A stretch of 64,000 bases of DNA from Mesobacillus subterraneus. Lineage in GTDB: Bacteria; Bacillota; Bacilli; Bacillales; Cytobacillaceae. Position 1 is the first letter of the stretch; each line of letters begins with the position of its first letter. Made by a program: the position numbers and the translations under genes. Location: the NCBI RefSeq assembly GCF_020524355.2, contig NZ_CP129019.1:4030001-4094000 (forward strand). The letters run 5' to 3'. Of the stretch, positions 26,557-63,412 are shown piece after piece. The notes under the pieces were generated by a model that did no database searches, had not been told where the DNA came from, and saw only the letters and a program-made list of their open reading frames with translations.

Positions 26557-26816
26557 ACGGGCACAAGTTCACCCTTCTTGTGACCGTACTCTCTCAATTT
26601 CCTCTTTCACGGGCACAAGTTCTCCTTTCTTGTGACCGTACTCTCTCAATTTTCTCTTTCACGGGCACAAGTTCACCCTTCTTGTGACCGTGCTCTCTCA
26701 ATTTCCTCTTTCACGGGTACAAGTTCACCCTTCTTGTGACCGTACTCTCTCAATTTCCTCTTTCACGGGCACAAGTTCTCCTTTCTTGTGACCGTGCTCT
26801 CTCGTTTTCCTCTTTC
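26557..26816. repeat. Array A1: five 52-bp repeats with paired palindromic words
   Basis: Five tandem units begin at 26557, 26609, 26661, 26713 and 26765, exactly 52 bp apart. Each unit contains ACGGGCACAAG and, 20 bp on, its near-exact inverse CTTGTGACCGT, then a TCTCTCAATTTCCTC spacer. Units differ by a few substitutions only. It lies between recQ and the hypothetical membrane gene. The word ACGG-R-CACAA is shared with array A3 at 48558. Confidence 0.95.
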
Positions 26817-26823
26817 ATGAAGC

Positions 26824-26852
26824 TGAAAAAGACGAAGCCCGTGGGCTTCGTC
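26824..26852 (-). terminator. Rho-independent terminator of recQ
   Basis: GACGAAGCCC/GGGCTTCGTC 10-bp stem followed by a T-run on the minus strand, directly after the recQ stop. Confidence 0.85.
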
Positions 26853-28986
26853 CTAATGTACCTTTTTCTTAGACATATACAGAAATGCTTTGATCATAAA
26901 ATAGCTAACCTCATCAGGCAGCAATTCTTTGATTGGCTTTAACCTGTCGCGGCCGGCTTCTGCGACTGCCTGTTCCAAGTCACTGATATACTGTGCCGGG
27001 ATCAGCACGTCATAATCGACTTCCATTCCCTGCTGGATGCATTGAATCAGGTGATTTTCTACGGTACTTTCCACCAGTTCGCGCTCTGCGGCAATTTCAG
27101 AAACGGTCTTTTTCTCCTGATGCAGCTTGTATGTTTCTAGATGGGAATCTCCGATGACCTTCTTCGCTGGTTTCCTTACTGGCTCGGCAACAGCATTCAT
27201 TACCGGCTGGCGCTCTGGATGTTCTTCACAAAACTCGATAACCCGCTGAATGAATGGTGCACCATACTTCTGCAGCTTGTGTTCTCCTACTCCTGCGACA
27301 TTGAGGAATTCTGCGTCTGTCAGCGGTAGTTTGAGGCACATATCCTTCAATGAGGAATCGGAGAAAATCATGAACGGCGGCACTTTTTCCGCAGCGGCAA
27401 CTTCCCTACGCAATTCACGCAGTTCCTCAAACAACGGATCATCATTAGAAACCTGCTTGACCTTGACCGCTTCCTTCCTGAACACCTTTGTCTTTCCAAG
27501 CAGGACATCCTTCCCTTTTTCAGGTACATAAATCGTCGGGTAGGTGCCATGCTCAACGCCAATCAGCTCCTGGGAGATCAGAAATTCTATCATGTCATTA
27601 ACCTGCTTGGCATTCCGATCCTTCATCAGGCCGTAAGTAGGCAATTTATCAAGACGAAACTCGAGGACTTTTTTATTCCTTGAACCGGTCAACACATTGG
27701 CCGTCATCGCTTTGCCGTATTTCTGCCCCATCCGAATGATGCACGACAGCACCATTTGAGCATCCTTCGTGACATCCTGCATTTCACGAGCGTCCGTACA
27801 ATTGCCGCAGCGTCCGCATGGCACGGTCTCTGTTTCGCCAAAATAGTGAAGAATATAGGATTGCAGGCACTCCTCGGTATGGCAGTACCCGACCATTTGC
27901 TGCAATTTTTCCAGTTCAGGTGGAATTCGATCACGGTCGGCGGACTGGTCGATTAAAAAGCGCTGCACCTGGACATCCTGCGAAGAATAAAGCACGGTAC
28001 ACTCGCTATCCAGGCCGTCACGTCCTGCACGGCCAGCCTCCTGATAGTAGCTCTCCATATTCTTCGGCATCTGGAAGTGGAGGACGTAGCGGATGTTACT
28101 TTTATCAATTCCCATTCCGAATGCTGATGTCGCAACCATCACAGTTGCCTCGTCCTGTAAAAATCGCTCCTGCTCGCGATTCCGGTCTTCATCGTTCATC
28201 CCTGCATGATAGCGGGCGGCTTGGAAACCTTCCTTCTGCAGCCATTCATAAAGCTGATCGACGATTTTCCTGGTCGCTGCATAAATGATGCCAGCTTCCT
28301 TTTCGTTCTTTTTGATAAAATCTCTTAAATACGCTTGTCGATCCTGGTCCTTTTACCACAGAAAAACTGAGGTTGCTGCGCTCAAATCCGGTAATGACCG
28401 TATTCTCAGGGTTTATTTTTAGCGATGCGCAAATGTCTTCCCTTACCTTCGGTGTCGCGGTTGCCGTCAGGGCGAGCACAATTGTTTTTCTCGGCAGACG
28501 GTCTGCGAGTCCGGAAATCTGCAGATAGCTCGGTCGGAAATCATGTCCCCATTGGGAGATACAGTGCGCTTCATCGACGGCGATCAGCGGAATATCCATG
28601 TCCTGCAGGTCATCGATGAACTCCCAGGACCCCAGCCGCTCGGGCGCGATGTATAATAGCTTGTACTTTCCGTTCCTGGCGTCATCCATTCGCGCAGCAG
28701 CTTCACGTGCAGTCAGCGAGCTGTTGATATACGTTGCCGGAATGCCAAGCTGGGTGAGGGTATCGACCTGATCCTTCATCAAGGAAATCAGTGGAGAAAT
28801 GACGATGGTTGTCCCAGGGAGCACGAGTGCAGGGACTTGATAGACAATTGATTTTCCGCCTCCAGTCGGCATGACACAGACGGTATTCTTCCCTTCGAGA
28901 ACAGAGGAAATCGCCTGTTCCTGCCCCATTCGGAATGAGGAATAACCAAAATGGTTTTGCAATAATTCACGGGCTTTTTGCAGCAT
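26853..28986 (-). CDS. recQ: RecQ DNA helicase (frameshifted in this sequence)
   Basis: A RecQ-family 3'-5' helicase of ~710 residues when the two frames are joined. N-terminal part (start ATG 28986, AAAGGAG upstream): Walker A TGGGKS at residues 41-46 and DEAH at 138-141. C-terminal part: helicase motif VI QEAGRAGRDGLDSECTVLYS, the zinc-binding CGRCGNC of the RQC domain and an HRDC domain near DAEFLNVAGVGEHKL. The frame breaks at 28346-28347, where GGACCAGGAT replaces an expected GGACAGGAT (one extra C on the coding strand). The protein is otherwise full length, so this is probably a sequence error. Confidence 0.9.
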
Positions 28987-29115
28987 AGCGAGGTAGCTCC
29001 TTTCAGTGAGAAAATGTTGGGGATTTTTTGAGGTATGCTCTTTCATTTTAACAGATAAGCCTACTAGAACGACAGCAGCAAAAATGCCATGCTCCAAGAA
29101 GAAGCACAGCATTAT

Positions 29116-30191
29116 TTATTCTGCGATCAACAATGTTTCTGTATTTTGATTGCGAGGCAACAAAATACGTATGGTCGTGCCTTCCCCCTGATTGACTTTC
29201 AATGTCAATGGTTCCTTGATGAAGATCGATAATCCGTTTGCAAGTGAGCAAACCCAGTCCTGTTCCTTTTTCCTTGGTTGAATAAAAAGGCTCAAACAGG
29301 CGCTCCAACCGCGATTCCGGTATACCGCAGCCTTTATCATTAATGGTGACCATAACCGAGTCCCCACTCACTTCTTCAAGCGTTACGGAAATAAAATGGC
29401 CGTTGTCCCCTGTCGCTTCGATTGAATTTTGGAGAAGATTTATCAGCACCTGCTTCATTTGGTTCCGGTCACAATCCAAAATAATTTCCTTTTTATCATC
29501 AAACTCTATCTTTAGACTTTTAAGGTTGGCCTGTGGCTCCATGAAGTGAACACAGTCCCTTAATAGCTTAGTAAAATTCGCATATTGAAAATTAACATTT
29601 TCTTGAGGTTTGGCAATAAACATAAATTCATTGACGATTTGATTGATTCTGTTCATTTCATCCAGCATGATATCAAGGTACGGAATCAACTTTTCATCCG
29701 CAACGCTTTCTTTGACGATTTTAGCAAAGCCTTTCAAAGAGGTGAGCGGATTCCTGATTTCATGTGCGATTCCTGCTGCCAGCTCCCCAACTACAGAGAG
29801 CTTCTCCATTTGCTGGACCTGCTTTTCCCTTTCTTTCTCTTTCGTTATATCAATGGCTGTTCCAATGACCTCAACTGTCATCCCGTTTTGGCGAACAGGG
29901 TACAGGACGGCCAGGTAATGGACTCCACCCAGGCTGCCTTCATAGTTGACATGCTCACCTCTCCACGCCTTTTCGTAAAAATTCACTTTGCGTTTTGCCT
30001 GGTCAGGCGGCAAAAATTCAGTCAACGATTTTCCGATGACTAGGTCAGGACAAAGACCTACCTTCTCTATGAGCTTGCCTTCAATAAAAGTATGGATGAA
30101 TTGATTGTCTTTTTTTTAGGAATTTAAAAATAAAGCCTGTCTCCCTGAGTATGAACTGCTCATAATCTACTGCGGTACTCTTGTCATTCAC
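29116..30191 (-). CDS. PAS-domain sensor histidine kinase (two frameshifts)
   Basis: About 357 residues when rejoined. The N-terminal PAS domain begins at GTG 30191 (MNDKSTAVDYEQF). The kinase core carries the H-box GELAAGIAHEIRNPLTSLKGF with the phosphoacceptor His, then the N-box LLQNSIEATG, the G1 box NDKGCGIPE and the G2 box GTGLGL. Sequence type is that of Bacillus sporulation-phosphorelay kinases (KinE/KinB-like), which feed Spo0F. Frame breaks are an A8 run at 30110-30117 (7 expected) and a C5 run at 29184-29188 (4 expected); with both restored the protein ends GEGTTIRILLPRN. Probably sequence errors. Confidence 0.8.
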
Positions 30192-30521
30192 ACGGCAACA
30201 CCCTTAGAAAAGATTCATTCCCTAATAATTCTTTATTACTAGGGAAAATCCTTTTAAAAAAAGGAAATAGTCAGAGATTAGAATTAATTACCAAAACCAA
30301 CAGTACCGCGGATACCTAAAACGCAATGACTGCGAACTTAAAGGTCTTATTCATTCGTGACTTCCTTATTGCTCTCTGCAAGAAAGGACTGCTCATAAAG
30401 TCAGTATCTCGATTTACATCCCCCATACCGACCATGGATATTAGGAAAAGTGAACCTAATCCAGTTTCATTTTTCATCGGAAAATTCCAATAGGATAAAC
30501 TATATGTAAGCGGGAGGTAAA

Positions 30522-30554
30522 AATAAAAAACTGCTTTCCCCAAAAGGAAAGCAG
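30522..30554 (-). terminator. Rho-independent terminator of pncB
   Basis: CTGCTTTCC/GGAAAGCAG stem with a CCAAAA loop followed by a T-run on the minus strand; lies directly after the pncB stop. Confidence 0.85.
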
Positions 30555-30560
30555 CCCATT

Positions 30561-32041
30561 CTATTCCGTCTTCTCTCCAGTCATCTCCATGACCTTCTCT
30601 TTTACTTCTTCTATATTGCGCATCTTGTTATCCCAGCATTTCTGGCTGAGGTCCACAGGGTACTCTTCGGGATTGAGCATACGGGTGTATTCTTCCCATA
30701 GAACGCCGAGACAGTAGGTTGAGTGCTTGCGGACTTCCTCTAGGCTCGGCTGGGTATACACTAGCTTACCCTCCTTGAAGATATCATGATGCAAATCCCT
30801 TGCATCGAAATTGGTGACGAATTTGCTGATAAAGGTATGGACCGGGTGGAACATCTTCAGGCGCTTTTCCTGCTGTGGATTTTCACCTTCAAGAGTGATG
30901 TAATCCCCCTCTGAACGGTTGTTGGCTTTATTAATGATCCTATAGACATTCTTGATGCCTGGTGTTGTCACTTTTTCCGGATTGGAAGAAATCTTGATGG
31001 TGTCCTCCATCGTTCCGTCACCCCGCTCAACCGAGACAATTTTATAAACCGCTCCTAAAGCAGCCTGTTCGTAAGCAGTAATCAACTTCGTGCCAACTCC
31101 CCAAGTATCGATTTTTGCCCCCTGAGCTTTCAGGTTCATGATCGTATACTCATCCAGGTCGCTGGATGCAACGATTTTCGCATCCTTAAAACCGGCTTCA
31201 TCCAGCATTTTACGGGCTTCCTTGGAAAGGTAGGCTAGGTCACCGCTATCGAGACGGATGCCGATGAAATTAATCTTATCGCCGAATTCCTTTGCCACTT
31301 TGATTGCGCTTGGCACTCCAGACCTCAGTGTGTCATACGTATCGACGAGGAATACGCAATCTCTATGCGTTTCCGCGTATTTTTTAAAAGCGGTGTAATC
31401 ATCCCTGTAAGCCTGTACCATTGAATGGGCATGCGTTCCAGCGATCGGGATGCCGAACAGTTTTCCCGCACGCACATTGCTGGTAGAGTCGAAGCCTCCA
31501 ACATAAGCAGCACGCGTGCCCCAAAGTGCTGCATCCATTTCATGCGCACGGCGGGTACCAAACTCCATCGCAATTTCATCCTTCACGACCTGCTTGATGC
31601 GTGAAGCCTTTGTCGCAATCAATGTCTGGTAATTCACGATGTTCAAGAGCGCCGTTTCAATCAGTTGCGCTTCTGCAAGCGGTGCGTCCACTCTTACCAG
31701 CGGCTCATTGGCAAATACAATTTCACCCTCTTGCATCGCGCGGATTGAACCAGTGAATTTCATATCTTTTAAAAAGGCAAGAAAGTCCTCATCAAAACTT
31801 CCTTCTTCCCGAAGGTATTGAATATCACCCTCTGAAAAACCGAAGTTTTCGATGTAATGGATGATTTTTTCGAGAGGCCGGCAAAAACGGCATAGCCATT
31901 GCCGAAGGGAAGCTTGCGGAAAAACAAGTCAAACACCGCGCGGCGGTTATGGACGCCATCACGCCAGTACGTTTCCATCATATTTAATTGATATAAGTCC
32001 GTATGCAGCATCAAGCTGTCGTCTGTGAATTTAGTGCTCAT
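30561..32041 (-). CDS. pncB: Nicotinate phosphoribosyltransferase (frameshifted)
   Basis: An enzyme of NAD salvage that converts nicotinate and PRPP to nicotinate mononucleotide. Joined length is about 492 residues, as in B. subtilis PncB. The N-terminal part ([20 protein letters not shown]) matches, followed by [16 protein letters not shown]; the second frame continues ENFG-like sequence then [40 protein letters not shown] (PRPP loop) and [15 protein letters not shown]. The break at 31873-31876 is a duplicated AG (CGAGAGG instead of CGAGG). It sits beside pncA, the amidase that makes its substrate. Confidence 0.9.
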
Positions 32042-32129
32042 CAAAAAACCTCCAAATATACTGCCATCATCATCACTTATCGGAAAATAAAACCTTCTTT
32101 CCGCTACCATCTGGCCTTGCAAATACGTG

Positions 32130-32682
32130 TTACTTTACCTCCGCGCCAATCGAGCTCTCAAAATGGCGGAGCGACCACTCATGGCCCACCTGGTCAAAAG
32201 AAGCGACCGCGTCCTTATAAACAATAATCTTAAATCCCTTATTATAAGCATCAACTGCGGTGTGAAGGACGCAAATGTCGGTGCACACGCCGACAAGATG
32301 CACTTCTGTGATGCCCTCGCTCGCGCAGCTTTATCTCAAGATCAGTCCCGGCAAATGCGGAGTACCTCGTTTTGTCGATATAATACACATGATCAAGATG
32401 CTTATTTTCTTCATAAACTCCCTGCAGGCTGCCGTATAAATCCCTGCCTTTCGTACCGCGGATATTATGAGGCGGATATAGCTTCGTCTCCGGATGGAAT
32501 TCATCGCCCTCATCATGGACATCAATAGCGAAAACAACATAATCACCATTTTCGATGAACTCCTTCGTCACGCCGACGAGTTTCTCTTCAATCGCCTGCC
32601 CCGGCTCACCGCAAGTCAGCCGACCATCATCCGCCACGAAATCATACGTAAAGTCGATATTGATTAACGCCTTGTTCCCCAT
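32130..32682 (-). CDS. pncA: Nicotinamidase PncA (frameshifted)
   Basis: Hydrolyses nicotinamide to nicotinate, the step before PncB. Restored length is 183 residues, identical to the B. subtilis protein. The N-terminal [20 protein letters not shown] holds the catalytic Asp, and [17 protein letters not shown] contributes the metal-binding Asp and His residues. The catalytic Cys is in the C-terminal [16 protein letters not shown], seen only after removing one base of a C3 run at 32314-32316. Lies immediately upstream of pncB, forming a two-gene salvage operon. Confidence 0.88.
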
Positions 32683-32847
32683 TATGTATCCACATCCTTT
32701 TATCTTATTATCTTTTATTTTCATTCAAATATGATTTACAGGCAAATTTTTCATATCGATGAGAACTTTTTGATAAGACTAAACTAACCTTTGGCGCCTT
32801 ACCTTCTTTTTAAAAAAAGGTCTATATTCAACAATGTTTTTTGATTT

Positions 32848-32995
32848 AGGAATAAAATCTACATTTAAGGAATATATTCAGCTTTTAAGGAATATATCTG
32901 TAGGTTTAAGGAATATATCTGTAGGTTTAAGGAATATATCCGTTGGTTTAAGGAATATATTGTATTTTAAGGATTATAATCATTTTTCAAGAATA
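32848..32995. repeat. Array A2: TTTAAGGAATATAT repeats at ~21-bp steps
   Basis: The GG of the word TTTAAGGAATATAT (with a TTTAGGAATA variant first) falls at 32849, 32869, 32889, 32910, 32931, 32952 and 32971, with a degenerate last copy near 32990. Steps are 19-21 bp. Lies between pncA and dgkB. An in-frame translation exists on the plus strand but has no ribosome site and is a by-product of the period being divisible by three. Confidence 0.9.
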
Positions 32996-33021
32996 TCCTT
33001 CTATACCCTAACTCATATAAC

Positions 33022-33048
33022 AAAAAAACCACCCCATTTTGGAGTGGT
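33022..33048 (-). terminator. Rho-independent terminator of dgkB
   Basis: ACCACTCC/GGGGTGGT stem (one G-U pair) with an AAAAT loop and a T7 run on the minus strand. Confidence 0.85.
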
Positions 33049-33054
33049 CCTTCA

Positions 33055-33997
33055 TCATTTTGCCTTGAAATTCAATTCCAGGTTCTCCGGGCGGTCTTCA
33101 GGACGGATTTCGTCGAGTGGCACGTAGACTTCGATGTGCCTGAACAGGTTTTCGAATTCAGCTGGCAAATTGCCGCCGTATTCGCCGTCTAAGTTCAATT
33201 GGACCGTTTCCTTGGATTGCACCTTGATGCGGTTGGCCTGCGTGTAAATGACGCCTGAATCATAGATGTGTTCACCGCGGACAGCGAGTGAAGCAATTCT
33301 GATGAAATCGGCCAGGTTTGTCTTTTTCAAAATCAATAACGAAAACAACCCATCATTGATTGAGGAATTTGGAGCCAAACGTTCGAAACCGCCAACGGAA
33401 TTCGTCAGTCCGACAAGGAACATCATGACCTCGCCTTCGAATAGCTTTCCATCATACTCAATCGTTACTTCAGAAGCACGAATGGATGGCACCATCTCAA
33501 TTCCTTTAAGATAGTAAGCGAGCTGGCCAAGCATTGTCTTGAGTTTGCTCGGCACTTCATATGTGAGCTCCGTCAGTCTGCCGCCGCCAGCAATATTTAT
33601 GAAATATTTATCGTTGATTCGGCCTACATCGACCGGAATCGTATCGCCTTTAACAATAATGTCAACCGCAGCATCGATATCCCTTGGAATATGGAGCGCG
33701 CGCGCAAAGTCATTTGTTGTGCCGACTGGAATGACACCGATTTTCGGTCGGTACTCCTGTTCAGCGATTCCATTGACCACTTCATTGATCGTGCCATCTC
33801 CGCCAGCCGCAATCACCAGGTCATAGCGCCGCTCGACCGCAATTTTCGCAGCCTGTGTCGCATCCCCCCTCACCTGTCGTTGCATGGCATGAAGCCTCAT
33901 AACCGGCATTCTCCAGCTTTACCAAGACTTCGGCCAGATGCTTTTTGAAAACCTCACGACCCGAAGTCGGATTATAAATGATTCTTGCTCTTTTCAT
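33055..33997 (-). CDS. dgkB: Diacylglycerol kinase DgkB (frameshifted)
   Basis: A soluble lipid kinase that phosphorylates diacylglycerol, recycling the lipoteichoic-acid by-product to phosphatidate. About 313 residues when joined. The N-terminal MKRARIIYNPTSGRE and the ATP-binding VIAAGGDGTINEVVNG (GGDGT motif) are diagnostic, and the start is ATG 33997. The break is a C6 run at 33864-33869 where five are expected. In B. subtilis dgkB (yerQ) also neighbours the gat operon and rlmCD, so the locus is syntenic. Confidence 0.9.
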
Positions 33998-34620
33998 ACC
34001 CATCATCCTACTTAATATGGTTTTTAATTCCATCATTTTACATCATATCTCAAATTGACCTGTGAGGCAATTTTCCTGTCATCTATTCTACCGGATATAT
34101 CATAAACTACTTTATGTCTTTTTGCCAAAAAGAAACCTATTATTTAATCTAAGTGTTAACTATCATATTTTTCGAAAAACTCTTCCATTCATACTCGTTC
34201 TTTTTTACAATATAAAGAGAATGGTTACATAAATTGGAAACCCCTACCCGTTATTGTGATTGAAGGATGCAGCCTAGAGATCTTATTACCTGGTTACAAC
34301 CTGTACAAAAGTATAAGATACATGCTGCAATATTGATCTGCTCAATTGGACTTGTAGTTTTCTCATCCTTACACTGGTGATGCTCCAGCAAATGAGAATC
34401 AGCAGTGCATTCATATTGAAGTATACTGCTATATGATACAACAGACGTCAAAAACGGCATAATAGTTCCCGAAGGTTTTGACCAGTACAACTGCCTGCAG
34501 AACACATATTTTCAGCATTGTATACACTTATCAAGGATTGATTGACTCTGTAAAATAAAGATACTGACGAGGACTATTTTAGAATAAAATTCTCTAACTA
34601 GATTAAAAGGGTGACGTTAT
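33998..34620. other. Gap of ~620 bp between dgkB and plsY
   Basis: No gene with a ribosome site is visible. A minus-strand frame of 84 codons (34251-34505) is cysteine-rich and unlike anything I know; I treat it as non-coding. The end of the gap holds an AT-rich stretch with TTGATTGAC...TAAAAT that could be the plsY promoter. Confidence 0.4.
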
Positions 34621-35242: not shown

Positions 35243-35247
35243 ATATT

Positions 35248-39056: not shown

Positions 39057-40100
39057 TTATTCAAAAACAAAGGTATCCAAAACTCCTTTATCTGTCTTGC
39101 CATACTTCTTTGCCAGTTCTTCAAACTGCTTATTTCTCTTATCACTGCCAAACCCAACTGATATCCTTTTCAGAGAAGGATTTCTTAATGCAGGCAAATA
39201 ATCTTCCACACTCATATTCATTGCTGACCAGTGTGTAAAAACCTCAAGGGCTGGAGCGTACTCTAGACTATTAAGCTCTTTCAACCCCTTCAAGTTATTT
39301 AAAGCAAGCTTCCGCAGTTTATGTAAATCAACCAGGGACGGAAATATTTTAACATTTGGCAGATTTTCAATCGTTACGTATTGAAGTCCAGTTAATGATG
39401 ATATAAATGATATATCACTTAACCCCCTGATTTGGAATAGCTCCAGATATTTTAATCCGTCCATACCTGCAATAGCATTAAAAGTTTTAATCCCGCCAAA
39501 ATTAATTGAAAGATGCGACAGTTTTTTTAACGGCTTCAAGAATTCCAGGTCACTGGTTGTTATGGACGTTAAGGTGATTTTTTCAATATTCATTAACTTC
39601 CCGACAATCTCAATATCTTTTGTGTGCCCTACAATCAAGAGTTCTTCAAGGTCCTTGAACCTTTCTATCGCAGATAGACTTTGTTTTTTTGACTTTGTTT
39701 GGCCAAGTATCAACTTCTGCAATCCATCTGGGACCAAAGATAAGACTTCAAAGGATTCCAGACTGAATATACTGAGGTTAAGTTCTGCCAAATTCTTTAA
39801 AGATGCGAGCGTTTCTACATTTTCTACCCTGTCATGACACTCAACATATAGGCGCCTTAAATTCGGAAGAAGATGAAGAAAGCTTAAATCACAAACAGTC
39901 TGGTAATACCCATAGACACGGAGAATTACGTCGCTCCGGTTTGAGAACAGGGTCTCGTTCAATTTCGTGAAAGTTTCAGGTTCAATATCACTAGAAAACT
40001 GGATAACTTGTAATTTTTTATTTTTTATTAACTCCGTGATTTCATCTGTAGTTAAACTCCCATTAATTTGTACACGGCCATCAGATGTTAAACTATACAT
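39057..40100 (-). CDS. Leucine-rich-repeat protein, 347 aa
   Basis: About nine leucine-rich repeats spread through residues ~45-300, with the pattern LxxLxxLxLxxN in short forms such as LPNLRRLYVECHDRVENVET, LKNLAELNLSIFSLESFEVL and LKKLSHLSINFGGIKTFNAI. No signal peptide or transmembrane segment, so cytoplasmic. It begins MYSLTSDGRVQINGSLTTDE, a short strand region unlike LRR. It lies between another LRR protein and an unknown gene in the minus-strand cluster. LRR domains serve protein-protein binding; the partner is unknown. Confidence 0.75.
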   Translation of the reverse strand: MYSLTSDGRVQINGSLTTDEITELIKNKKLQVIQFSSDIEPETFTKLNETLFSNRSDVILRVYGYYQTVCDLSFLHLLPNLRRLYVECHDRVENVETLASLKNLAELNLSIFSLESFEVLSLVPDGLQKLILGQTKSKKQSLSAIERFKDLEELLIVGHTKDIEIVGKLMNIEKITLTSITTSDLEFLKPLKKLSHLSINFGGIKTFNAIAGMDGLKYLELFQIRGLSDISFISSLTGLQYVTIENLPNVKIFPSLVDLHKLRKLALNNLKGLKELNSLEYAPALEVFTHWSAMNMSVEDYLPALRNPSLKRISVGFGSDKRNKQFEELAKKYGKTDKGVLDTFVFE

Positions 40101-48557: not shown

Positions 48558-49075
48558 ATGACGGACACAAACTCCGCTTTCCCACTAATTTCTGTCCGTC
48601 ATGACCTTGATGACGGACACAATTCACGCTCTTCTTCCAGTTTCTGTCCGTCATGACCTTGATGACGGACACAATTCACGCTTTTCCCTCAGTTTCTGTC
48701 CGTCATGACCTTGATGACGGACGCAAATCACGCTTTTCCTTCAGTTTCTGTCCGTCATGACCTTGATGACGGACGCAAATCACGCTTTTCCTTCAGTTTC
48801 TGTCCGTCATGACCTTGATGACGGACACAAATCACGCTTTTCCCTCAATTTCTGTCCGTCATGACCTTGATGACGGACGCAAATCACGCTTTTCCCTCAA
48901 TTTCTGTCCGTCATGACCTTGATGACGGACACAATTAACGCTTTTCCTACAGTTTCTGTCCGTCATGACCTTGATGACGGACGCAAATCACGCTTTTCCT
49001 TCAGTTTCTGTCCGTCATGACCTTGATGACGGACACAAATCACGCTTTTCCTTCAGTTTCTGTTCGTCATGAACA
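48558..49075. repeat. Array A3: ten 52-bp repeats with paired inverted words
   Basis: Tandem units start at 48558 and repeat every 52 bp (48610, 48662, 48714 and so on) for ten units, the last slightly degraded. Each carries ATGACGGAC and its inverse GTCCGTCAT; a loop of 7 bp (GACCTTG) separates units and one of 27 bp lies inside a unit, so either palindrome can form. Substitutions cluster in the 27-bp loop. It lies between yueI and aceA. Related to array A1 by the shared word ACGG-R-CACAA. Confidence 0.95.
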
Positions 49076-49154: not shown

Positions 49155-49188
49155 CAAAAAAAACCTCCTCTTCGAACCGAAGAGAAGG
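49155..49188 (-). terminator. Rho-independent terminator of aceA
   Basis: CCTTCTCTTCG/CGAAGAGGAGG minus-strand stem with a GTT loop, followed by a run of Ts. It lies about 100 bp after the aceA stop. Confidence 0.8.
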
Positions 49189-52360: not shown

Positions 52361-52472
52361 GTGCAATTATGCTAATGGACCGTGCAATTATGGAGGTAAA
52401 GCGTGCGTCCTCTACTTATTGATGCAATTATGAGCGGGAATGATGCAATTCCTAGGATCCACCGTGCAATTG
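52361..52472. repeat. Array A4: (G/A)TGCAATTA words at 21-bp steps
   Basis: Words GTGCAATTA (52361, 52382), a degenerate GTGCGTCCT (52403), ATGCAATTA (52422), ATGCAATTC (52443) and GTGCAATTG (52464). Steps are 21, 21, 19, 21 and 21 bp. It lies upstream of the aceB promoter and next to the CPBP gene's 3' end. Copies are few and more decayed than in the other arrays. Confidence 0.75.
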
Positions 52473-52500
52473 ATGATTAGAAATGCAGACAAAACAAAGA

Positions 52501-52520
52501 AACCCCTAATTACAGGGGTT
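52501..52520 (-). terminator. Rho-independent terminator of CPBP gene
   Basis: AACCCC/GGGGTT stem with an 8-base loop overlapping the corrected stop codon at 52510, followed by a U-rich tail on the minus strand. Confidence 0.7.
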
Positions 52521-53246
52521 TTTCTGCATTCTTTTTCAGTATGAATCTTATAAAGAGAAATATGAGGGCGGGTACAACTAAATTAGGCAGCAAAAAGTGT
52601 ACAAAAAAAGGATTGCGCATCTGTGAGGTGATTTGCCCGGTCCGCTTGAGGGATCAGAATTTGATTTCCTAAAGGGCCTTTTGAAAAAAACTGAGTTAAA
52701 AACAAAGTTCCATCCTAAGTGCAAACCGATTGGGAGCATCATCGATTTTGTTTTTTCAAATGCATATGCCCAAACTAATCCGGAAAAGGACGTCATCAGA
52801 AATACAACAAGCATCAAAACAATATTTCCTAATACTCCAAAAGTAAACCAGTGGTAGATCCCAAAAGCTATTGCGGATAATAAAATCCCTGTCCTCGCTC
52901 CCCATTTCCGAATAGCGCTATAGAGAAGTGCTCCTCTAAAAATCAACTCTTCAAAGACGACAGACTTAACATTCCACCATAAGAAGTTTAGTGTGCCAAT
53001 GACAGATAAATTCTCATTTAGCTTCCAGTCCGTATTTGTTAGAGCAGAATCGAGCAGTTGGCTCAATGTGCAAAGTGTTGCAGTAAAAATGAAACCTAGA
53101 GCGAATTGGGACATTCTTGATACTGATGGTGTGATTCCTAATACCTTAACGTTTTCTTTTAAAAAAACACGAAGTAATATCCACGATAACAATAGCTGTA
53201 CTACTATTCCCAGCAAGGCATCAACTCCATTTAAGGGCAATTTCAC
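52510..53246 (-). CDS. CPBP-family intramembrane metalloprotease-like (two frameshifts)
   Basis: A CPBP/Abi-type membrane protein of ~244 residues after repair. Motif 1 EELIFRGALLYS (glutamates and arginine), motif 2 FGIYHWFTFG (His) and the third site HLGWNFVFNSVF are all visible. Breaks are A7 runs at 52684-52690 and 52613-52619 (six expected in each); with both corrected the protein runs on through FCVHFLLPNLVVPALIFLF-like sequence to the stop at 52510. Family members process peptides or confer bacteriocin immunity; no substrate is evident here. Confidence 0.8.
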
Positions 53247-54879: not shown

Positions 54880-54897
54880 TCTATCCCCTCCTATGTA

Positions 54898-55045: not shown

Positions 55046-55245
55046 TGGTCGAAATATTCACGAATGTGGTCTAATTAATTCCAGATATGGTCGAGTTAAT
55101 CATAAAAGTGGTCGAAATATCCTGAGATATGGTCGAGTTAATCATAAAAGTGGTCGAAATATCCTGAGATATGGTCGAGTTAATCATAAAAGTGGTCGAA
55201 ATATCCTGAGATGTGGTCGAATTAATCATAAAAGTGGTCGAATTA
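55046..55245. repeat. Array A5: TGGTCGA words at exact 21-bp steps
   Basis: The GG of (A/G)TGGTCGA(A/G) falls at 55047, 55068, 55089, 55110, 55131, 55152, 55173, 55194, 55215 and 55236, ten copies in perfect 21-bp register and one orientation. Between words the sequence alternates so that a 42-bp higher-order unit also appears. It lies between rocA and the DinB-family gene, the only such array in a divergent region. Confidence 0.95.
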
Positions 55246-55371
55246 ATCTCATTTTCGCCAATAAAATGTAAAACCGTATCAGTCAGAACCACTTTCACAC
55301 TCTTTTTAGCAGGGTATTACAATGAATCTCGCGAATATTTATCTATCATTCAAAAAAGGAGTCTATTTCAG

Positions 55372-55830: not shown

Positions 55831-55832
55831 CA

Positions 55833-55862
55833 AGCAAAGAACCCCGGCTCTTTGCTTTTTCA
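55833..55862. terminator. Bidirectional terminator
   Basis: AGCAAAGA/TCTTTGCT stem with a CCCCGGC-type loop between the convergent DinB and lipoprotein genes; T-runs on both sides. Confidence 0.8.
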
Positions 55863-55867
55863 TTCCT

Positions 55868-56335
55868 CTATTCTAACTTTTCGGCGACCTCGGTTTCTAC
55901 TTCTTTAACCAACTTTTTGATATGAATGGATGGGTAATCCAGGGCTTTAATCTCAGCAAAATAAGGAAACATTTCTTTAACATCATCAGCGTAAAAGCTT
56001 CCATCCCGCGGCAGGGTATGGCTGATGACTTTGAGGGCACCTTCGCTTCGATCGACCTTCAACACCATTGGCACGGACATACCCGAACCTTGCTCAACTT
56101 CAGCACCCTCTTTGTAGTACTCCTCAATCAACGCCCATAAATAAATTTCACCCTTCTCTTCGCTGGAGGCAAGAATTTCATATGCACTTAAAATTTCTCC
56201 GCCAAAATTCGGCTTCATCACTTCTTGACGTATGTATCTTTCAATTTCCTCTCCTTCTTCTTCTGTTACTGCTGCGTTTGAACATCCCGCGACTAACAAA
56301 ACCACAAACATAACCCAGATGAAATTGCGCTTCAT
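55868..56335 (-). CDS. Hypothetical lipoprotein, 155 aa
   Basis: The N-terminus carries a signal peptide with lipobox LLVAGCSN, so it is lipid-anchored after Cys ~19. The mature part is acidic (EEEGEEIERYIRQEVMKPNF, then WALIEEYYKEGAEVEQGSGM) and ends LVKEVETEVAEKLE. No family recognised. It overlaps slightly in spacing with a small membrane-protein frame. Monocistronic by its flanking hairpins. Confidence 0.65.
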   Translation of the reverse strand: MKRNFIWVMFVVLLVAGCSNAAVTEEEGEEIERYIRQEVMKPNFGGEILSAYEILASSEEKGEIYLWALIEEYYKEGAEVEQGSGMSVPMVLKVDRSEGALKVISHTLPRDGSFYADDVKEMFPYFAEIKALDYPSIHIKKLVKEVETEVAEKLE

Positions 56336-56355
56336 TTTAACCCTCTCCTACCTGA

Positions 56356-56502
56356 TTAACGAACTTTTTTCTTCCAAAATAACAACCCTGCGTTAATTCC
56401 AATAAGCAACAGCACGATTGCACGGGCCCTATCCCTATTAGGCTGGACATTAAAGAGAGGGAGATAGATGAAAATCGTTCCGTTACTTGTCCAGACACCC
56501 AT
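56356..56502 (-). CDS. Possible small two-span membrane protein
   Basis: The frame beginning ATG 56502 gives 48 residues (MGVWTSNGTIFIYLPLFNVQ, then AIVLLLIGINAGLLFW), with one clear membrane span and a basic end. Reading upstream in the same frame adds another hydrophobic stretch (GLWNISLTLSFSMGVW), but no start codon precedes it; a different frame with an ATG at 56570 loses the second span. Either a shorter protein or another frameshift. Doubtful. Confidence 0.4.
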   Translation of the reverse strand: MGVWTSNGTIFIYLPLFNVQPNRDRARAIVLLLIGINAGLLFWKKKVR

Positions 56503-56689
56503 TGAAAAAGATAAAGTAAGGCTGATATTCCAAAGGCCATAATATAGCTGTTTTCAATATATACTTCCATTTTACTTTTTAACTAACACTGATTGGAACA
56601 GCCACTTATCCACCTCTTCTAATGAGAATTGTCAGAATATATACGATAATAATCGAGTTTTAGATTCACCTTTTTTCAAAAAAATAAAA

Positions 56690-56715
56690 AGCAAAGAGCC
56701 CCTCGGCTCTTTGCT
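56690..56715 (-). terminator. Rho-independent terminator of camS
   Basis: AGCAAAGAGCC/GGCTCTTTGCT 11-bp perfect stem with a GAGG-type loop and a T-run. Confidence 0.88.
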
Positions 56716-56719
56716 TCTA

Positions 56720-57934
56720 CTACTGATAAATATGCACAAATGGTTCATCCTGATCGGGCTTTTTCACAATCAAAGCTTCTTGTCCCAGTACAGAGGATAC
56801 GCTGACCTGTACGGACATATAGTTAGGGAAGTGCTCCATAACCAGTCCTGTTACATACTGGGTGAATCCAATTGCTTCCGCTTCTCCGTAGAACTGGATC
56901 GGTATTTCGATATTCAATTCCTGAAGCTGACCATCAAGGTAAAAGCCTTTGCCGATGACGCCGTTGAAGTTCGGGAAATATTCCTCAACATCCTGTTTGA
57001 AGTTCTGGAAGAATGTCAGGTCATCCCTATGGTCCTTCTCCGCTTGGGCGGATGGGAACAGGATGTACTTTTCTTTTACATCTTTCCAGCTGCCGACCTT
57101 ATTGCTTCCCTGGGAAACTTCAGCATAGGTGAAAAAGTTTCCAGGGACAACAGAAGATCGGCTTTCCTGTTCAAACAATCCAATTGTAATCGGAACATTT
57201 TTCAACTCATCAATGCCTCTTATCCTGTTGACGACTTCCTGGGCGATTTTCTTCCCTTCATCTTCAAGGACTTTACGGGTAATATTTTTCTCGAACACCG
57301 CTCCAAAAGCTTCCTCCTGGTAATAGTGGACGGAATTCAAAGCCAGCCCGATTGCGACGCCGCCAAGCTGGTACGTATCCTTTTCGCCCGATTGGACCAG
57401 GTAGTTATGCTCTAGGATATGGGCAAGGTAAATTGGGTTCTTTTTATTCTGCTCGTGGGCATCGCCCTTGCCAGGATTAGCAGGATTGAGTCCCAGGTTT
57501 TTCACTTCAATCTTCTTCTTATTTTTGTTTTCGGGTTTGGCCTTCAGCTCTTTTTCCTTTGCCTCTACTTGCGCAGGGGTCATTTCCCGCTCCAGCCAAG
57601 ATTCCACGGTGCTGCGGTCAAGATACTGACCTTCCTTGAAAACGTACTTGTCGGTGGAAAACGTATTTTGCGCAATCCGCATCAGACCTGTCTCAAATTC
57701 AGTAATGTCATAGCGGGTATTCAGATTGTTGACGACCATGCCGCGAGCTTCCCCTGGCTCGAACGGAATGATGGTACGGTAATATTTGTCCGAAATTTTA
57801 TACTTTGGGATAATCGCTTTTTCTTTTGTGTCATTATCCTTTTCCTGGACGACCTCTTCCTGTTTTTGAAAATTAGGGGCACAGGCCGTCAGCAGCAGGA
57901 CAAGAGATAGAGCGACCATTGAGAGCTTTCTCAT
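56720..57934 (-). CDS. camS: CamS-family sex-pheromone-type lipoprotein
   Basis: A 404-residue lipoprotein with lipobox LLLTACAP. In staphylococci and enterococci the signal peptide of CamS is processed to a pheromone-like peptide; in Bacillus (YerH) the family's role is not established. Mature-domain motifs are YYRTIIPFEPGEARGMVVNN, NPIYLAHILEHNYLVQSGEK and IGKGFYLDGQLQELNIEIPI. It lies downstream of ligA with a short gap, the same order as B. subtilis ligA-yerH. Intact. Confidence 0.9.
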   Translation of the reverse strand: MRKLSMVALSLVLLLTACAPNFQKQEEVVQEKDNDTKEKAIIPKYKISDKYYRTIIPFEPGEARGMVVNNLNTRYDITEFETGLMRIAQNTFSTDKYVFKEGQYLDRSTVESWLEREMTPAQVEAKEKELKAKPENKNKKKIEVKNLGLNPANPGKGDAHEQNKKNPIYLAHILEHNYLVQSGEKDTYQLGGVAIGLALNSVHYYQEEAFGAVFEKNITRKVLEDEGKKIAQEVVNRIRGIDELKNVPITIGLFEQESRSSVVPGNFFTYAEVSQGSNKVGSWKDVKEKYILFPSAQAEKDHRDDLTFFQNFKQDVEEYFPNFNGVIGKGFYLDGQLQELNIEIPIQFYGEAEAIGFTQYVTGLVMEHFPNYMSVQVSVSSVLGQEALIVKKPDQDEPFVHIYQ

Positions 57935-57948
57935 GGCGTGTTCACCTC

Positions 57949-60003
<2,055 letters not shown>

Positions 60004-60126
60004 CTACAAGTGACTCGAGGTGCTCAAAGCTAACGCTTCTAACAAGCTACTCGAGGATGCACTCGCAGGGATGACAACTGGCTAGGCACTTGAGCTAGAC
60101 AGTACTCAATGTGTAATAAAAACTGT

Positions 60127-62394
60127 TTAAGCCTTCGTAATCGGTGCGAACTTGGCAAGCAATCGTTTAATACCTGTCGGGCTAGGGAATGCGATATCGA
60201 GCTCCATTCCTTCTCCCGATCCCTTGACACTGACGACCGTTCCTGTTCCCCACTTGCCGTGCTGGGCTTTGTCGCCAACCTTCCATTCAATCCCTTCGCC
60301 GCCGCTTGCAGCTGGGACCGGTCGAGATACAGCTCCACGTGCAGGGATAGAAGGTCTGGCAGAAGTACCTGGTCTTCCACCACTGGCTGATGCTGATCTT
60401 CCGCCGCTTGTTGGTGCAGGCCTTCTCACTTTTGGCACAGCGTCTTCAACCAAATCAGCAGGAATTTCCTTGATGAACCGTGATTCCGGATTCATATTCG
60501 TACGACCGAAAAGGGTACGCATTTGTGCATTCGTGATGAACAATTCTTCTTCAGCTCGCGTGATTCCCACGTAGGCAAGACGGCGTTCTTCCTCCATCTC
60601 ATCCTCCTCCATTAAAGAGCGGCTGTGCGGGAATACGCCCTCTTCCATTCCAATCAGGAAGACGACCGGGAACTCGAGACCCTTAGCTGAGTGCAATGTC
60701 ATCAATGTGACGAAGTCTGTTTTTTGCTCCCCGTCATCATCCAGGCGGTCGATATCAGCAACAAGTGCCAAATCCGTCAGGAACGCCACCAGGCTTTTAT
60801 CTTCACTGCTTTCTTCAAAGCTTTTTGTTACCGTTAAAAATTCATCTATGTTTTCAAGTCGGCTCTGTGACTCCAGCGATTTTTCCGCCTTCAGCATGTC
60901 TCGGTAGCCTGTTTTATCAAGGACTTCCTCTACTAGCTCGGTCACTGACAGATATTCCTGCTGATGAGTGTAATTGCTGACCAGGTTGCGGAATTCTGCC
61001 GCAGCTTTTTCTGCCTTCGGGCTCAGTCCGATCATTTCTATTGTCTCTAAGGCCTGGAACATCGAAAGGTCATGCATTGTCGCGAAGTTCGCAATTTTAT
61101 CAATAGAAGTTGAACCAATCGCACGCTTCGGAACATTGATGATCCTCTGCAAGCTGATATCATCATCCGGATTCGAAATCAAACGCAGATACGCCAGGAT
61201 ATCCTTGATTTCCTTCCTGTCATAGAACTTAGTGCCGCCAACGATTGAGTAATCGATGTTCGACTTCAGGAAAGATTCCTCAATTACACGGGACTGCGCA
61301 TTCGTACGGTAAAGAATTGCGATATCGGAGAGCTTGCGGCCATTGCGCATCTGCTCCTGGATTTTGCCGATGACGAACTGCGCTTCGCCCTGCTCACTGT
61401 CAGCGCGATAATACATGATTTTGTTGCCCTCAGCGTTTTCCGTCCATAAATTCTTCGGCTTGCGGTTCATATTGTTCTGGATAACCATATTAGCAGCCAG
61501 AAGTATCTTTTTCGTCGAGCGGTAGTTCTGCTCAAGCAAAATCACGCTTGCCCTTGGATAGTCCTTTTCAAATGAAAGGATATTCGTGATATCGGCACCG
61601 CGCCAGCGATAGATTGACTGATCCGAATCACCAACAACACAAAGGTTCTGGAATCTTTGCGCAAGCAATTTTACAAGCATGTATTGTGCCCTGTTCGTAT
61701 CCTGGTACTCATCCACATGGATGTACTGGAACTTGCGCTGGTAATACTCCAGCACTTCAGGTACGCGGATGAACAGCGTAATCGTCGTCATGATCAGATC
61801 ATCAAAATCAAGCGCATTATTTTTGCGCAGCCTGCGCTGATATTCCGTATACACATCGCTGACCTTCTGGGAAAAATAATCCCCCGCTGTCTTCGCATAT
61901 TCCTCCGGCGTAATCAATTCGTTCTTCGCCGAGCTGATTGTTCCAAGAATCGCACGAGGATCATACTTTTTCGGATCCATATTTTTGTCCTTCAAAATCG
62001 ACTTGATTACAGACTGCTGGTCAGTCGAGTCAAGGATTGTAAAGTTGCGGTTATATCCGAGACGGTCGATGTCCCTGCGCAAAATCCTTACGCACATCGA
62101 GTGGAAAGTTGAAATCCAGATGTCGTCTGCCGCGCCGCCCATCATTTTTTGAATCCTCTCGCGCATTTCGCGCGCTGCTTTATTCGTAAACGTAATCGCC
62201 AGGATGTTATAAGGATTTACCCCTTTTTCCACCATCAAATACGCAATCCTATGTGTTAAAACTCTGGTTTTACCAGAGCCAGCACCTGCCATCAGCAGCA
62301 GCGGTCCATCCACTGTCTTGACAGCCTTCTGCTGCTCCGGGTTCAAGCCATTCAATAATTTATCCGTTAAAAATTGCACACTTGTCACCACCAT
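60127..62394 (-). CDS. pcrA: ATP-dependent DNA helicase PcrA
   Basis: A 755-residue UvrD/PcrA superfamily-1 helicase. Start choice: ATG 62394 or GTG 62379, the latter preceded by GGTGGTG and closer to the B. subtilis N-terminus. Motif I is AGAGSGKTR, motif [13 protein letters not shown], later [13 protein letters not shown] (motif III) and [15 protein letters not shown] near motif V. The disordered, Pro/Ser-rich C-terminal tail ends in a Tudor-like domain ([20 protein letters not shown]). Essential for replication and repair. Intact. Confidence 0.95.
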
Positions 62395-62452
62395 ACAAAC
62401 ATTTGTTCTTATTTTATCTCAAAACAATGTAACAAACAACTTGTCTATTCTT

Positions 62453-63139
62453 TTATTTTTCCGACGCAGCGACTGTCTTTAAGGCCTCATCAAGGTTGCT
62501 GTAAATGACATTACCAACCACGATGACATCTGCATGCTTGGCCATTTCTTCTGCTTGCTGTGCTGTTTCAATTCCGCCGCCGTAAAAGAGGACGGTGTTA
62601 TCAAGAACATCTTTGGCTGCTTCCACATACTCAGGATTGCCATATGTCCCGCTGTATTCCAAATAAAAAATCGGCAGGTTGAACATTTTCTCTGCCATCA
62701 TCGCGTAAGCACGCACATCTTCAATAGAAAGATCTGTCTTCGCATCAGTCAATTTCGCTGCCTTGCAATCCGGATTGAGGATGCAATAACCTTCCATTTT
62801 CACTTCGTCCCATTCCATCAGGTCGCCATACTCCTTGACCGCTTCATGGTGCAGGCCAGTGATCCACTGTGGATTGCCGCTGTTCAGCACCGTCGGGATA
62901 AAATAAAAATCGAATCCCGGCGTGATCGAGTCAATCGTCGAAACCTCGAGAATGCACGGAACCGTATAACGGCGGACTCGGGACATCAAATCAAGAACTC
63001 CTTCTAGAGTGACTCCATCCGTCCCTCCCACCATGATCGCGTCGGTTCCAGACTCGCAAATTCTATCTAATTCCTCATCAGTTATCTCTTTATTTGGATC
63101 GAGTTTGAACACATGTCTCCACTCGCGAACATCGTACAT
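62453..63139 (-). CDS. pcrB: Heptaprenylglyceryl phosphate synthase PcrB
   Basis: A 228-residue TIM-barrel prenyltransferase of the GGGPS family that joins heptaprenyl diphosphate to glycerol-1-phosphate, an archaeal-type lipid step retained in Bacillus. Features: [20 protein letters not shown], the phosphate-binding [16 protein letters not shown], and [20 protein letters not shown]. First gene of pcrB-pcrA-ligA-camS in the minus-strand operon, as in B. subtilis. Intact. Confidence 0.95.
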
Positions 63140-63280
63140 TCCAGAATTGCCCCCATTCTATCTATCCATTCCATCATTATAGCATTTGTTTTGAATATAT
63201 AAAAAAGGAAACATGTGAGAAAAGCACTCCGATTCATTACGGTTAATTACCCGACCTGGTTTTTGCTTCGACCGTAATAC

Positions 63281-63412
63281 TTTATAGCGAAAATAAACTT
63301 TTTATAGCGAAAAAATAGATTTTATAGCGAAAATCTAAATATTAAAGCGAAAACAATTTTTTTATAGCGAAATTGTCATTTTTATAGCGAACTGGAAATT
63401 AACAGCGTTTTT
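63281..63412. repeat. Array A6: TTTATAGCGA words at exact 20-bp steps
   Basis: TTTATAGCGA begins at 63281, 63301, 63321, (ATTAAAGCGA) 63341, 63361 and 63381, exactly 20 bp apart, with a degenerate AACAGCG copy near 63401. One orientation. It lies between pcrB and yerC. Confidence 0.95.

Follow-up and report, generated by a model that had tools for sequence, protein, structure and literature searches.

Six intergenic regions in one stretch of the Mesobacillus subterraneus chromosome hold tandem arrays of short words, which raises the question of whether they belong to one class of element, how their spacing is set and what the words might do. The window is the whole stretch of DNA analysed, 64,000 nt of contig NZ_CP129019.1 (positions 4,030,001-4,094,000). 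The genome survey comprised the window and 80 stretches of 20 kb from the same genome, 1.664 of 4.79 Mb in total.

The six arrays of the window

The arrays A1 to A6 (Table 1) were found where an earlier note on this DNA had placed them and, as it had also claimed, none overlaps a called gene or falls in the prophage (about 1-21.2 kb). A5 is flanked by divergent genes, and A1, A2, A3, A4, and A6 lie between genes of the same direction. The gene upstream of A6 is TrpR-like by its Trp_repressor match and is presumably yerC; the hairpin at its end scores 10, one below the threshold used. A6 is also adjoined by pcrB, which is next to the PcrA helicase gene. A unit like the A5 end unit was present at the same place, on the other strand, in loci L010, L013, and L014.

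Table 1. Arrays of the window and the elements beside them (positions within the window)
Feature	Position	Strand	Description
A1	26557..26817	-	52-bp pitch, 5.0 copies; inverted arms ACGGTCACAAG / CTTGTGCCCGT (minus-strand sense); purine-rich spacers
Intrinsic-terminator-like hairpin	26831..26852	-	Separates A1 from its upstream gene (recQ C-terminal part)
A2	32848..32996	-	20/21-bp pitch; word ATATTCCTTAAA (minus-strand sense)
Intrinsic-terminator-like hairpin	33028..33048	-	Upstream of A2 in gene sense
A3	48558..49072	-	52-bp pitch, 9.9 units; inverted arms ATGACGGACA / TGTCCGTCAT
Intrinsic-terminator-like hairpin	49164..49188	-	Between the isocitrate lyase gene and A3
A4	52361..52471	-	21-bp pitch (21/40); word TAATTGCA (minus-strand sense); one degenerate middle unit
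Intrinsic-terminator-like hairpin	52500..52521	-	Upstream of A4 in gene sense
A5	55046..55248	-	21-bp pitch; core word TCGACCA (minus-strand sense); alternating 42-bp dimer
A5 end unit	55254..55266	+	Single copy of another word family, TTCGCCAATAAAA; coordinates by eye
A6	63281..63391	-	Six words TTCGCTATAAAA, 20-bp pitch (20/40); third and last word deviate
A6 leader	63392..63418	-	27-bp element with the inverted pair TTGGAAA ... TTTCCAG, immediately ahead of the first word
Terminator-like hairpin	63422..63450	-	TrpR-like gene upstream, directly before the A6 leader; coordinates by eye

Period classes across the genome

The survey yielded 85 intergenic arrays in 1.664 Mb versus 0, 0, and 0 in three dinucleotide shuffles, which places the window arrays beyond chance. 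The modal spacing was 20-22 bp (or doubled, 40-43 bp) or 52-54 bp in 80/85 of them, with mean pitches of 20.51 and 52.22 bp; the called genes of the same 1.664 Mb contained 8 arrays of mixed period. The lag spectrum of exact intergenic 8-mers, computed on the first 40 stretches with the window excluded, had peaks at 20/21, 40-42, 52/53, and 104-106, and that of coding DNA in the same stretches had much smaller peaks, at 52 and 104 only. Two fixed pitches, of about two and about five helical turns, recur through the surveyed third of the genome and from genus to genus. Rough extrapolation (85 arrays in 1.664 of 4.79 Mb) gives some 200 or more arrays in the M. subterraneus genome.

The enrichment of 20-21/52-bp periodicity that the earlier note expected genome-wide was accordingly present in the third or so of the genome that was checked, and its phased class extends to the genome with two pitches. 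Its statement that each locus has its own word has to be withdrawn, as each of the six window words was found again in one or more of the other sampled stretches and the words form families across loci. The A3 family was found at six other sampled loci and in 18/21 genomes of the genus, the TTATAGCGA pair pattern was present in 18/21 genomes of the genus, and at least two TTGGCCG pairs were present in 20/36 g11 genomes. The 52-bp families share the pitch but not the arm geometry, a pattern that would not be accounted for by one protein alone. Many of the 52-bp arrays consist of near-identical units, which suggests that they are lengthened by tandem duplication; several others are heterogeneous.

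Architecture of the A6 family

The TTCGCTATAAAA family was located at 26 loci, with a similar dyad leader before the first word in 26/26 and a leader length of 27 bp in 25/26. Arrays contain 5-10 words with a mode of six (16/26), and 116/127 steps measure 20 bp. The variable part of the unit is about 8 nt; within an array the spacers are mostly unrelated and the words nearly invariant. The orientations, given in array sense, were ++ (12), +- (11), -- (2), and -+ (1), and the upstream gene has the direction of the array in 23/26. No common sequence was seen by eye in the 20 bases past the last word. The leader arms pair in 14/26 arrays versus 11.2 expected if they were independent, and this lack of covariation argues against an RNA stem. 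The word TCGCTATAA was clustered: 57 copies of it lay near another copy versus 0 for five control words. Isolated copies of TCGCTATAA were not clearly absent (14 versus 17, 5, 8, 4, and 4 for the controls), and isolated copies of TAATTGCAC numbered 16 versus 5 for its control.

Placement relative to genes

Among 75 arrays of all classes, 21 lay in convergent, 49 in tandem, and 5 in divergent gaps, versus 80, 483, and 133 of the background gaps of at least 150 bp (chi-square p 6e-6). Arrays are over-represented at gene 3' ends and in convergent gaps and under-represented in divergent ones. A placement model that counts 3' ends (2 per convergent gap, 1 per tandem gap, about 0 per divergent gap) gives expected numbers of 18.6/56.3/0.1, a close fit to the observed 21/49/5 that is broken by the divergent cases. 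By eye, some arrays outside the A6 family (L132, L097, and L103) seem not to face the upstream gene. A terminator-like hairpin was found on the 5' side of 37/80 arrays. The idea that arrays replace missing terminators was rejected because terminators were not rarer at array gene ends (37/87 versus 197/556, p 0.23).

Conservation and turnover

In the six A6 orthologues that keep the array (15 pairs), words were 0.92-0.98 identical (mean 0.95) and spacers 0.40-0.78 (mean 0.52). The spacer values are near those of pcrA four-fold sites, which were 0.45-0.73 identical in the ten pairs of five of those six genomes. L014 was included in this comparison, and the result holds with it; L062 was left out of the identity figures. 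The A6 words look as if they are kept by selection, and their conservation applies only where the array itself is retained. At the A6 site, the array is broken after three words in L009, another word is found in L018, and short gaps without an array are found in L017 and L019; in L062 a TTCGCTATAAAA array, shortened and decayed behind an intact leader, is followed by a TTCGCCAATAAA array.

Bacillaceae of other genera have the same spacings with other words, and words are largely genus-specific. In several genera, arrays with unrelated-looking words are found behind both the cluster-C4 gene, which probably occupies the yerC position, and the cluster-C2 gene. The gap between C4 and C0 holds an array at 9/65 loci with that adjacency and the gap between C2 and C12 at 8/30, so most genomes have no array in these gaps. 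Among 29 pcrA loci (151 kb) of other families of the class, a single array was found (L184 of G200, period 42). When 14 genomes of other families were sampled by stretches, G243 had three arrays (15 or 18 bp), G195 two (42, 51), G218 one (42), and G252 two (21). The stretch sample contained no arrays in three genomes of the same order (280 kb) or in G193, G213, G220, G225, G234, G237, and G244 (40 kb each). RsfA (Myb-like) was rejected as the binding factor: all 21 genomes have two such genes, counted by a piece scoring over the cut-off, whether the words are present or not, and the count is also two in G079 (66% complete), G081, and G087, from which both words are missing.

Interpretation

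It is plausible, if slightly short of probable, that the arrays are cis-acting binding platforms with their words phased on one face of the DNA, perhaps at transcription-unit boundaries. The A6 family would offer 5-10, mostly six, sequence-specific words two helical turns apart; in the other families the words would be set every 20-21 bp or be paired in inverted orientation within units of 52-53 bp (five turns). Protein subunits on successive words would share one DNA face and could touch, and in the A6 family the inverted TTGGAAA pair before the first word would set the polarity and the start point. The assembly might be a polar roadblock that stops RNA polymerase reading through, or it might serve as a topological or nucleoid anchor. 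We infer from the helical pitch, and from leader arms that do not covary, that DNA rather than RNA would be read; proteins would bind the arrays, and these may have a boundary role at the ends of transcription units. At A6 the greater conservation of words than of spacers is what a binding platform would give, which favours the protein-binding suggestion of the earlier note for that array.

That RNA-level elements are at work, in which the words or hairpins of read-through transcripts are recognised by an oligomeric RNA-binding protein or modulate decay or termination, is very unlikely. The sense orientation to the upstream gene in 23/26 arrays would agree with it, six as the commonest number of words would match a hexamer, and many 52-bp units have inverted arms able to form hairpins; against this, both pitches are close to whole turns of B-DNA, leader arms do not covary, several 52-bp families keep arm mismatches, 37/80 arrays have the terminator-like hairpin on their 5' side, and no Rfam family matched in the window at the gathering score, nor A3 or A6 up to E 0.1. 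A neutral origin, in which slippage, unequal crossing-over, or template switching duplicates units in tandem by a helix-set step and the words are founder sequence only, is the least probable of the readings weighed. Two sharp step sizes whatever the sequence, the near-identical units of many 52-bp arrays, and the 7-10 words of 7/26 TTCGCTATAAAA arrays would fit it. It is contradicted for the A6 family, as is the fixed-step replication slippage offered by the earlier note, by spacers that are mostly unrelated among nearly invariant words; it also leaves the recurrence of words at non-orthologous loci, a pair pattern in 18/21 genomes of the genus, and word conservation relative to spacers and four-fold sites to be explained.

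Elements of the REP/BIME kind, whose 3'-end arrays would recruit gyrase, a different topoisomerase, or a nucleoid protein to absorb supercoils generated by transcription, and would bend or wrap the DNA by phased GC-cores and AT-tracts, are an unlikely explanation. The 3'-end and convergent bias speaks for it, and PMC3733652 describes E. coli REPs as gyrase targets and REPs of several genomes as lying mostly between tandem and convergent genes. In a wedge model, the 20-bp arrays were more curved than dinucleotide shuffles (mean z -2.85; 20/34 below -1.5), an excess expected from any two-turn repeat, but the 52-bp arrays were little curved (median z -0.26; 10/44 below -1.5), and a mechanical role alone needs no word conservation at 26 loci and between species. 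Quite unlikely, too, is an origin as non-autonomous mobile or selfish elements (MITE/BOX-like, or clusters of sites like transposon ends) moved in trans, with gene ends merely tolerated. Dispersed families, the fixed leader and orientation, and the gain, loss, or decay at the A6 site between species (L009, L017, L062) are compatible with it, and the pneumococcal 3'-end bias has also been ascribed, in PMC3049150, to parasitic repeats being tolerated there. The copies have words and leader in common but differ in their spacers, however, so they are not recent; kept copies are under word-specific constraint, by eye no second conserved end was seen in TTCGCTATAAAA arrays, A3 has no match in 72,556 plasmid or 50,697 phage records, and the genome has no Y1 (IS200/RAYT-type) transposase (PF01797 gave 0 matches in it, the same search matching 5/14 known genomes).

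A wider form of the binding-platform reading is possible but more doubtful: Bacillaceae and, patchily, other families of the class may possess an undescribed chromosome-wide boundary system of polar, phased arrays of protein-binding words close to transcription-unit ends, in two-turn and five-turn gauges, in which pitch, leader, and word number change slowly, the word specificity of the DNA-binding proteins turns over per genus, and different words are rebuilt at the same gaps. If so, many Bacilli chromosomes would carry phased arrays that the libraries used do not annotate. They would provide a natural experiment in which architecture is kept while recognition words change, a means of identifying a DNA-binding factor under rapid evolution, and a testable model of how bacteria mark or insulate transcription-unit ends.

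Comparison with known systems

No description of this kind of array was recognised among the listed matches in the open-access PubMed Central literature. CRISPR arrays were rejected, the variable part of A6-type units being about 8 nt and the spacers of many 52-bp arrays being repeated. VNTRs or neutral slippage, with units alike along their entire length and a variable copy number, do not describe the A6 family, with its nearly invariant word and unrelated spacers; many 52-bp arrays do show such unit identity. The plasmid and phage searches gave no support to a plasmid or phage origin for A3; the TATAGCGA pair pattern occurs in four viral contigs, once each.

The resemblance to REP and BIME sequences (PMC3733652) lies in the intergenic position, for the most part in tandem and convergent gaps, in the ability to form arrays, and in a proposed DNA-level role, which for REPs is one with gyrase at ORF 3' ends. 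The present arrays differ in that the 20-bp class has no palindromic unit (by eye, 20-bp words are not palindromes, and many 52-bp units have inverted arms), in the fixed pitch of 20-21 or 52-53 bp over different words, in words that are largely genus-specific, and in a genome without a Y1/RAYT transposase. By eye, no GTAG tag was seen beside the 52-bp inverted arms in consensus units. BOX elements of Streptococcus pneumoniae (boxA-boxB(n)-boxC; PMC3049150) are similarly intergenic, consist of an end module with tandem modules behind it, and are over-represented between convergent genes. Unlike BOX, the arrays have no closing module that was seen (leader on one side only, 26/26) and no conserved spacers between copies; A6-family words are mostly six, and several word families share one pitch. 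The repeats of archaeal Borgs resemble the arrays as scattered intergenic tandem repeats that differ by locus; there they are described as perfect, recent, and about half in genes, whereas here spacers are diverged, arrays are intergenic, and two pitches dominate.

Iterons of plasmid origins and phased operator arrays consist of direct repeats about two helical turns apart that are bound by protein on one face, and the spacing of direct repeats is the likeness here. The arrays differ from iterons in that one word has at least 26 chromosomal loci and each genome several word families, and the scanned genes that flank the six window arrays include no replication initiator. The Sal-box/TTF-I arrays, oriented rows of short words directly downstream of eukaryotic rRNA genes, act as a polar roadblock, and the TTCGCTATAAAA arrays, oriented and multi-site downstream of a gene in 23/26 cases, may be an analogue of them in manner of working.

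Extent and periods of the arrays

All six intergenic arrays (A1 to A6) were present at the positions claimed in the earlier note, and the array finder listed none inside the prophage, as had also been claimed. The host contig is a single sequence of 4,786,507 bases (window at G000:C1:4030001-4094000). Repeat distances were surveyed in 40 stretches of 20 kb spread along the chromosome, window excluded. Exact 8-mer repeats in the intergenic DNA of these stretches gave sharp peaks at distances of 20, 21, 40-42, 52, 53, and 104-106, which bore out the expected genome-wide periodicity of 20-21 and 52 bp, and the peaks in coding DNA were far smaller and confined to 52 and 104. Arrays were counted in 80 stretches (these 40 and 40 further) plus the window, 1.664 Mb in all. 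A total of 85 intergenic arrays were found, including A1-A6, with modal periods of 20-22 (27 arrays), 40-43 (9, the 20-bp class doubled), 52-54 (44), and others (5); called genes of the same sample held eight, of mixed period, and three dinucleotide shuffles yielded 0, 0, and 0. The 44 probably include one or more uncalled coding repeats, L129 (period 54, purine-rich GAAGAACAGGA text) being the clearest case. Mean pitch was 20.51 bp in the 20-bp class (149 steps) and 52.22 bp in the 52-bp class (411 steps); with 10.5 bp to the turn these correspond to 1.95 and 4.97 turns. The array class is real, widespread in the host genome, and common to related genera.

Other features of the window are listed in the table. 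The host recQ is split into two ORFs, by pseudogene formation or sequencing error. The nicotinate phosphoribosyltransferase ORF begins within its N-terminal Pfam domain (profile position 82), so the true start is possibly upstream of the called one, or damaged. The chromosomal part also holds a gene whose protein matches leucine-rich repeats weakly.

Features of the window (positions in nt of the window)
Feature	Position	Strand
Prophage	1-21205	
Prophage SPP1-type portal	1189-2697	
Prophage PcfJ-like protein	8152-9768	
Prophage tyrosine integrase	20057-21205	
Split recQ, whole	26853-29112	-
recQ ORF with Helicase_C, zinc-binding, RQC, and HRDC domains	26853-28199	-
recQ N-terminal DEAD-domain ORF	28246-29112	-
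Nicotinate phosphoribosyltransferase ORF	30561-31763	-
Gene for protein weakly matching leucine-rich repeats	39057-40100	-

Word families

The earlier note had given each locus its own word, and this did not hold: all six window words recurred in sampled DNA outside the window, at 1 (A1), 1 (A2), 6 (A3, both strands counted), 3 (A4), 4 (A5), and 9 (A6) places, and BLAST of A5 alone found seven other places in the host genome. Overall, the observation of that note was confirmed and extended, and its interpretation proved half right. Families of the 20-bp class include TTCGCTATAAAA (that of A6), TTCGCCAATAAA, TCGACCA, TAATTGCAC, TATTCCTTAAA, and TGGTATTAAA; arms of the 52-bp class include ATGACGGACA, TTCGGACAAA, TGACAGGTTT/AAAGCTGTCA, ATAAGGGTACGAT (period 53), and CGGTCACAAG/CTTGTGCCCG. 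Within the 52-bp class, several loci have arms in common and differ in their loops, and the arm-to-arm distance varies by family while the pitch is constant.

Anatomy of the TTCGCTATAAAA family

A pattern search allowing one mismatch counted 126 TTATAGCGA pairs, and at least 26 TTCGCTATAAAA arrays were drawn from about 100 listed places among them, their surroundings, and the sampled stretches. An inverted pair, the leader, directly preceded all 26, with the form TGG(A/T/G)AAAA...CCA or slight variants and a length of 27 nt in 25 arrays and 23 nt in one. Words in register numbered 5 (three arrays), 6 (16), 7 (4), 8, 9, and 10 (one each), and steps were of 20 bp (116), 40 bp (5), 21 bp (5), and 19 bp (1). 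Positions 11 and 12 were A in 89% and 99% of 144 units; since this A-run lies outside the search word, the full word must span some 12 nt. The arms of the 26 leaders did not covary, which favours a DNA dyad and argues against an RNA stem. In the array sense, the surrounding genes were ++ in 12 cases, +- in 11, -- in 2, and -+ in 1, so that the leader faced the 3' end of the upstream gene in 23 of 26.

Copies of the TTCGCTATAAAA word near another copy numbered 57 against 0 for five control words, and isolated copies (14) fell inside the control range (17, 5, 8, 4, 4). Isolated TAATTGCAC copies exceeded the reversed control (16 versus 5). In three gaps (L062 8690-8960, L013 7323-7570, L091 12972-13368) a TTCGCTATAAAA array adjoined a TTCGCCAATAAA or related array, and in L062 both had their own leader. 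Four viral contigs (L306-L309) each carried one TTATAGCGA pair at 20-bp pitch, possibly in flanking host DNA.

Genomic placement

For 75 arrays with both neighbours called, the gaps were convergent in 21 cases, tandem in 49, and divergent in 5, against 80, 483, and 133 background gaps 150 bp or longer (p 6e-6 when gaps are counted, 4e-4 when weighted by bases). Terminator-like hairpins lay 5' of 16/36 arrays of the 20-bp class and 21/44 of the 52-bp class (within 160 nt, either strand), with 0/425 in shuffled flanks; they were about equally frequent at gene ends with (37/87) and without (197/556) an array. The 20-bp class was scarce in the terminus half (G000 0.96-2.88 Mb, a boundary picked after the binned data had been viewed), with 2 arrays in 640 kb versus 34 in the 1,024 kb sampled elsewhere (p 9e-6), and no such depletion was seen for the 52-bp class (16 versus 28, p 0.88). 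Purine-rich and leading strand coincided for 39 of 44 arrays of the 52-bp class, which may only reflect general strand bias.

Conservation at the A6 site

The gene upstream of A6 is yerC-like. Six genomes with at least five words at this site (the window, L010, L012, L013, L014, and L015) were compared in 15 pairs, conditional on arrays still being recognisable. Identity was 0.92-0.98 (mean 0.95) at word positions 3-12 and 0.40-0.78 (mean 0.52) at spacer positions 13-20; four-fold degenerate sites of neighbouring pcrA gave 0.45-0.73 (ten pairs, L014 excluded). Spacers therefore drift at about the neutral rate and words do not. Spacers of the same index were more alike than those of different index in 8 of 10 pairs (L014 excluded), so the array was inherited by descent. 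In other relatives the array at this site was broken after three words (L009), absent from gaps of 101 bp (L017) and 165 bp (L019), replaced by another word, AATTGGGAGAAT, behind a TTGGAAAAA stretch (L018), or reduced to the leader and a few partly altered words before a TTCGCCAATAAA array that a separate leader precedes (L062). The expected conservation of words in orthologous gaps stood for the six A6 orthologues that keep the array and failed where it was lost, broken, or replaced; at the one locus examined, retained arrays have conserved words.

Distribution across lineages

The host is a Mesobacillus-like member of the Bacillaceae, its PcrA sharing 98% identity with the Mesobacillus boroniphilus protein (L009); G000 and its genus, g1, are presumably Mesobacillus. 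Two other loci with Bacillaceae pcrA are apparently mislabelled: L012, "Chryseobacterium sp. ISL-80" (98% identity to the window), and L028, "Pseudomonas sp. ISL-84" (82%). TTATAGCGA pairs at 20-bp pitch were found in 18 of 193 family genomes, all among the 21 of the host's own genus (reversed control, one match in all). The 52-bp arms ATGACGGACA-N25-TGTCCGTCAT were present in these 18 genomes as well as in 2 of 36 genomes of g11, which we infer from L025-L040 to be Cytobacillus, and in one g12 genome, with two copies 104 bp apart. TTGGCCG, a word from Cytobacillus loci, had at least two matches at 21-bp pitch in 20/36 g11 genomes, a count reached outside g11 by just three genomes, G006, G017 (with a run of four consecutive units), and G096; any match was found in 46/193 genomes and 10/25 genera, with the control reaching 3 per genome. 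Setting aside the ten closest pcrA loci left 70, in which 43 of 48 arrays had modes of 20-21, 42, or 51-52, with other words. Arrays in several genera, with words that look unrelated, also lay behind the genes of clusters C4 (at what we infer to be the yerC position; 9/65 loci with the usual neighbour) and C2 (which we take to be the gene after ligA; 8/30). Outside the family, four genomes yielded a handful of arrays with periods of 21, 42, or 51 bp, and 280 kb from three genomes of the same order yielded none, which indicates a patchy distribution.

Proposed function and comparison with known systems

Because an array of this anatomy would require a factor to read the word, depend on several words in phase, and start at the polar leader, the proposed complex would be oligomeric and DNA-bound along one face of the helix. 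RsfA-type proteins were rejected as the binding factor, their presence not following the words. The position near gene ends, the sense orientation, and the frequent placement between convergent genes suggest that the arrays may act as a boundary (polar roadblock, insulator, or topological anchor).

A description of fixed-pitch arrays with changing words was not found among the open-access papers searched. The class is rated categorically new because every known family tested fails a defining feature, a rating that a description in literature beyond open access would alter. According to a survey that took in B. subtilis, B. halodurans, and B. anthracis (PMC1590033), intergenic stem-loops of low-GC Firmicutes are mostly terminator-like and unexplained by large repeat families. 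REP/BIME elements resemble the arrays in their 3'-end habitat and BOX elements in their layout of end module plus tandem repeats, but the arrays lack the defining features of either that were examined here.
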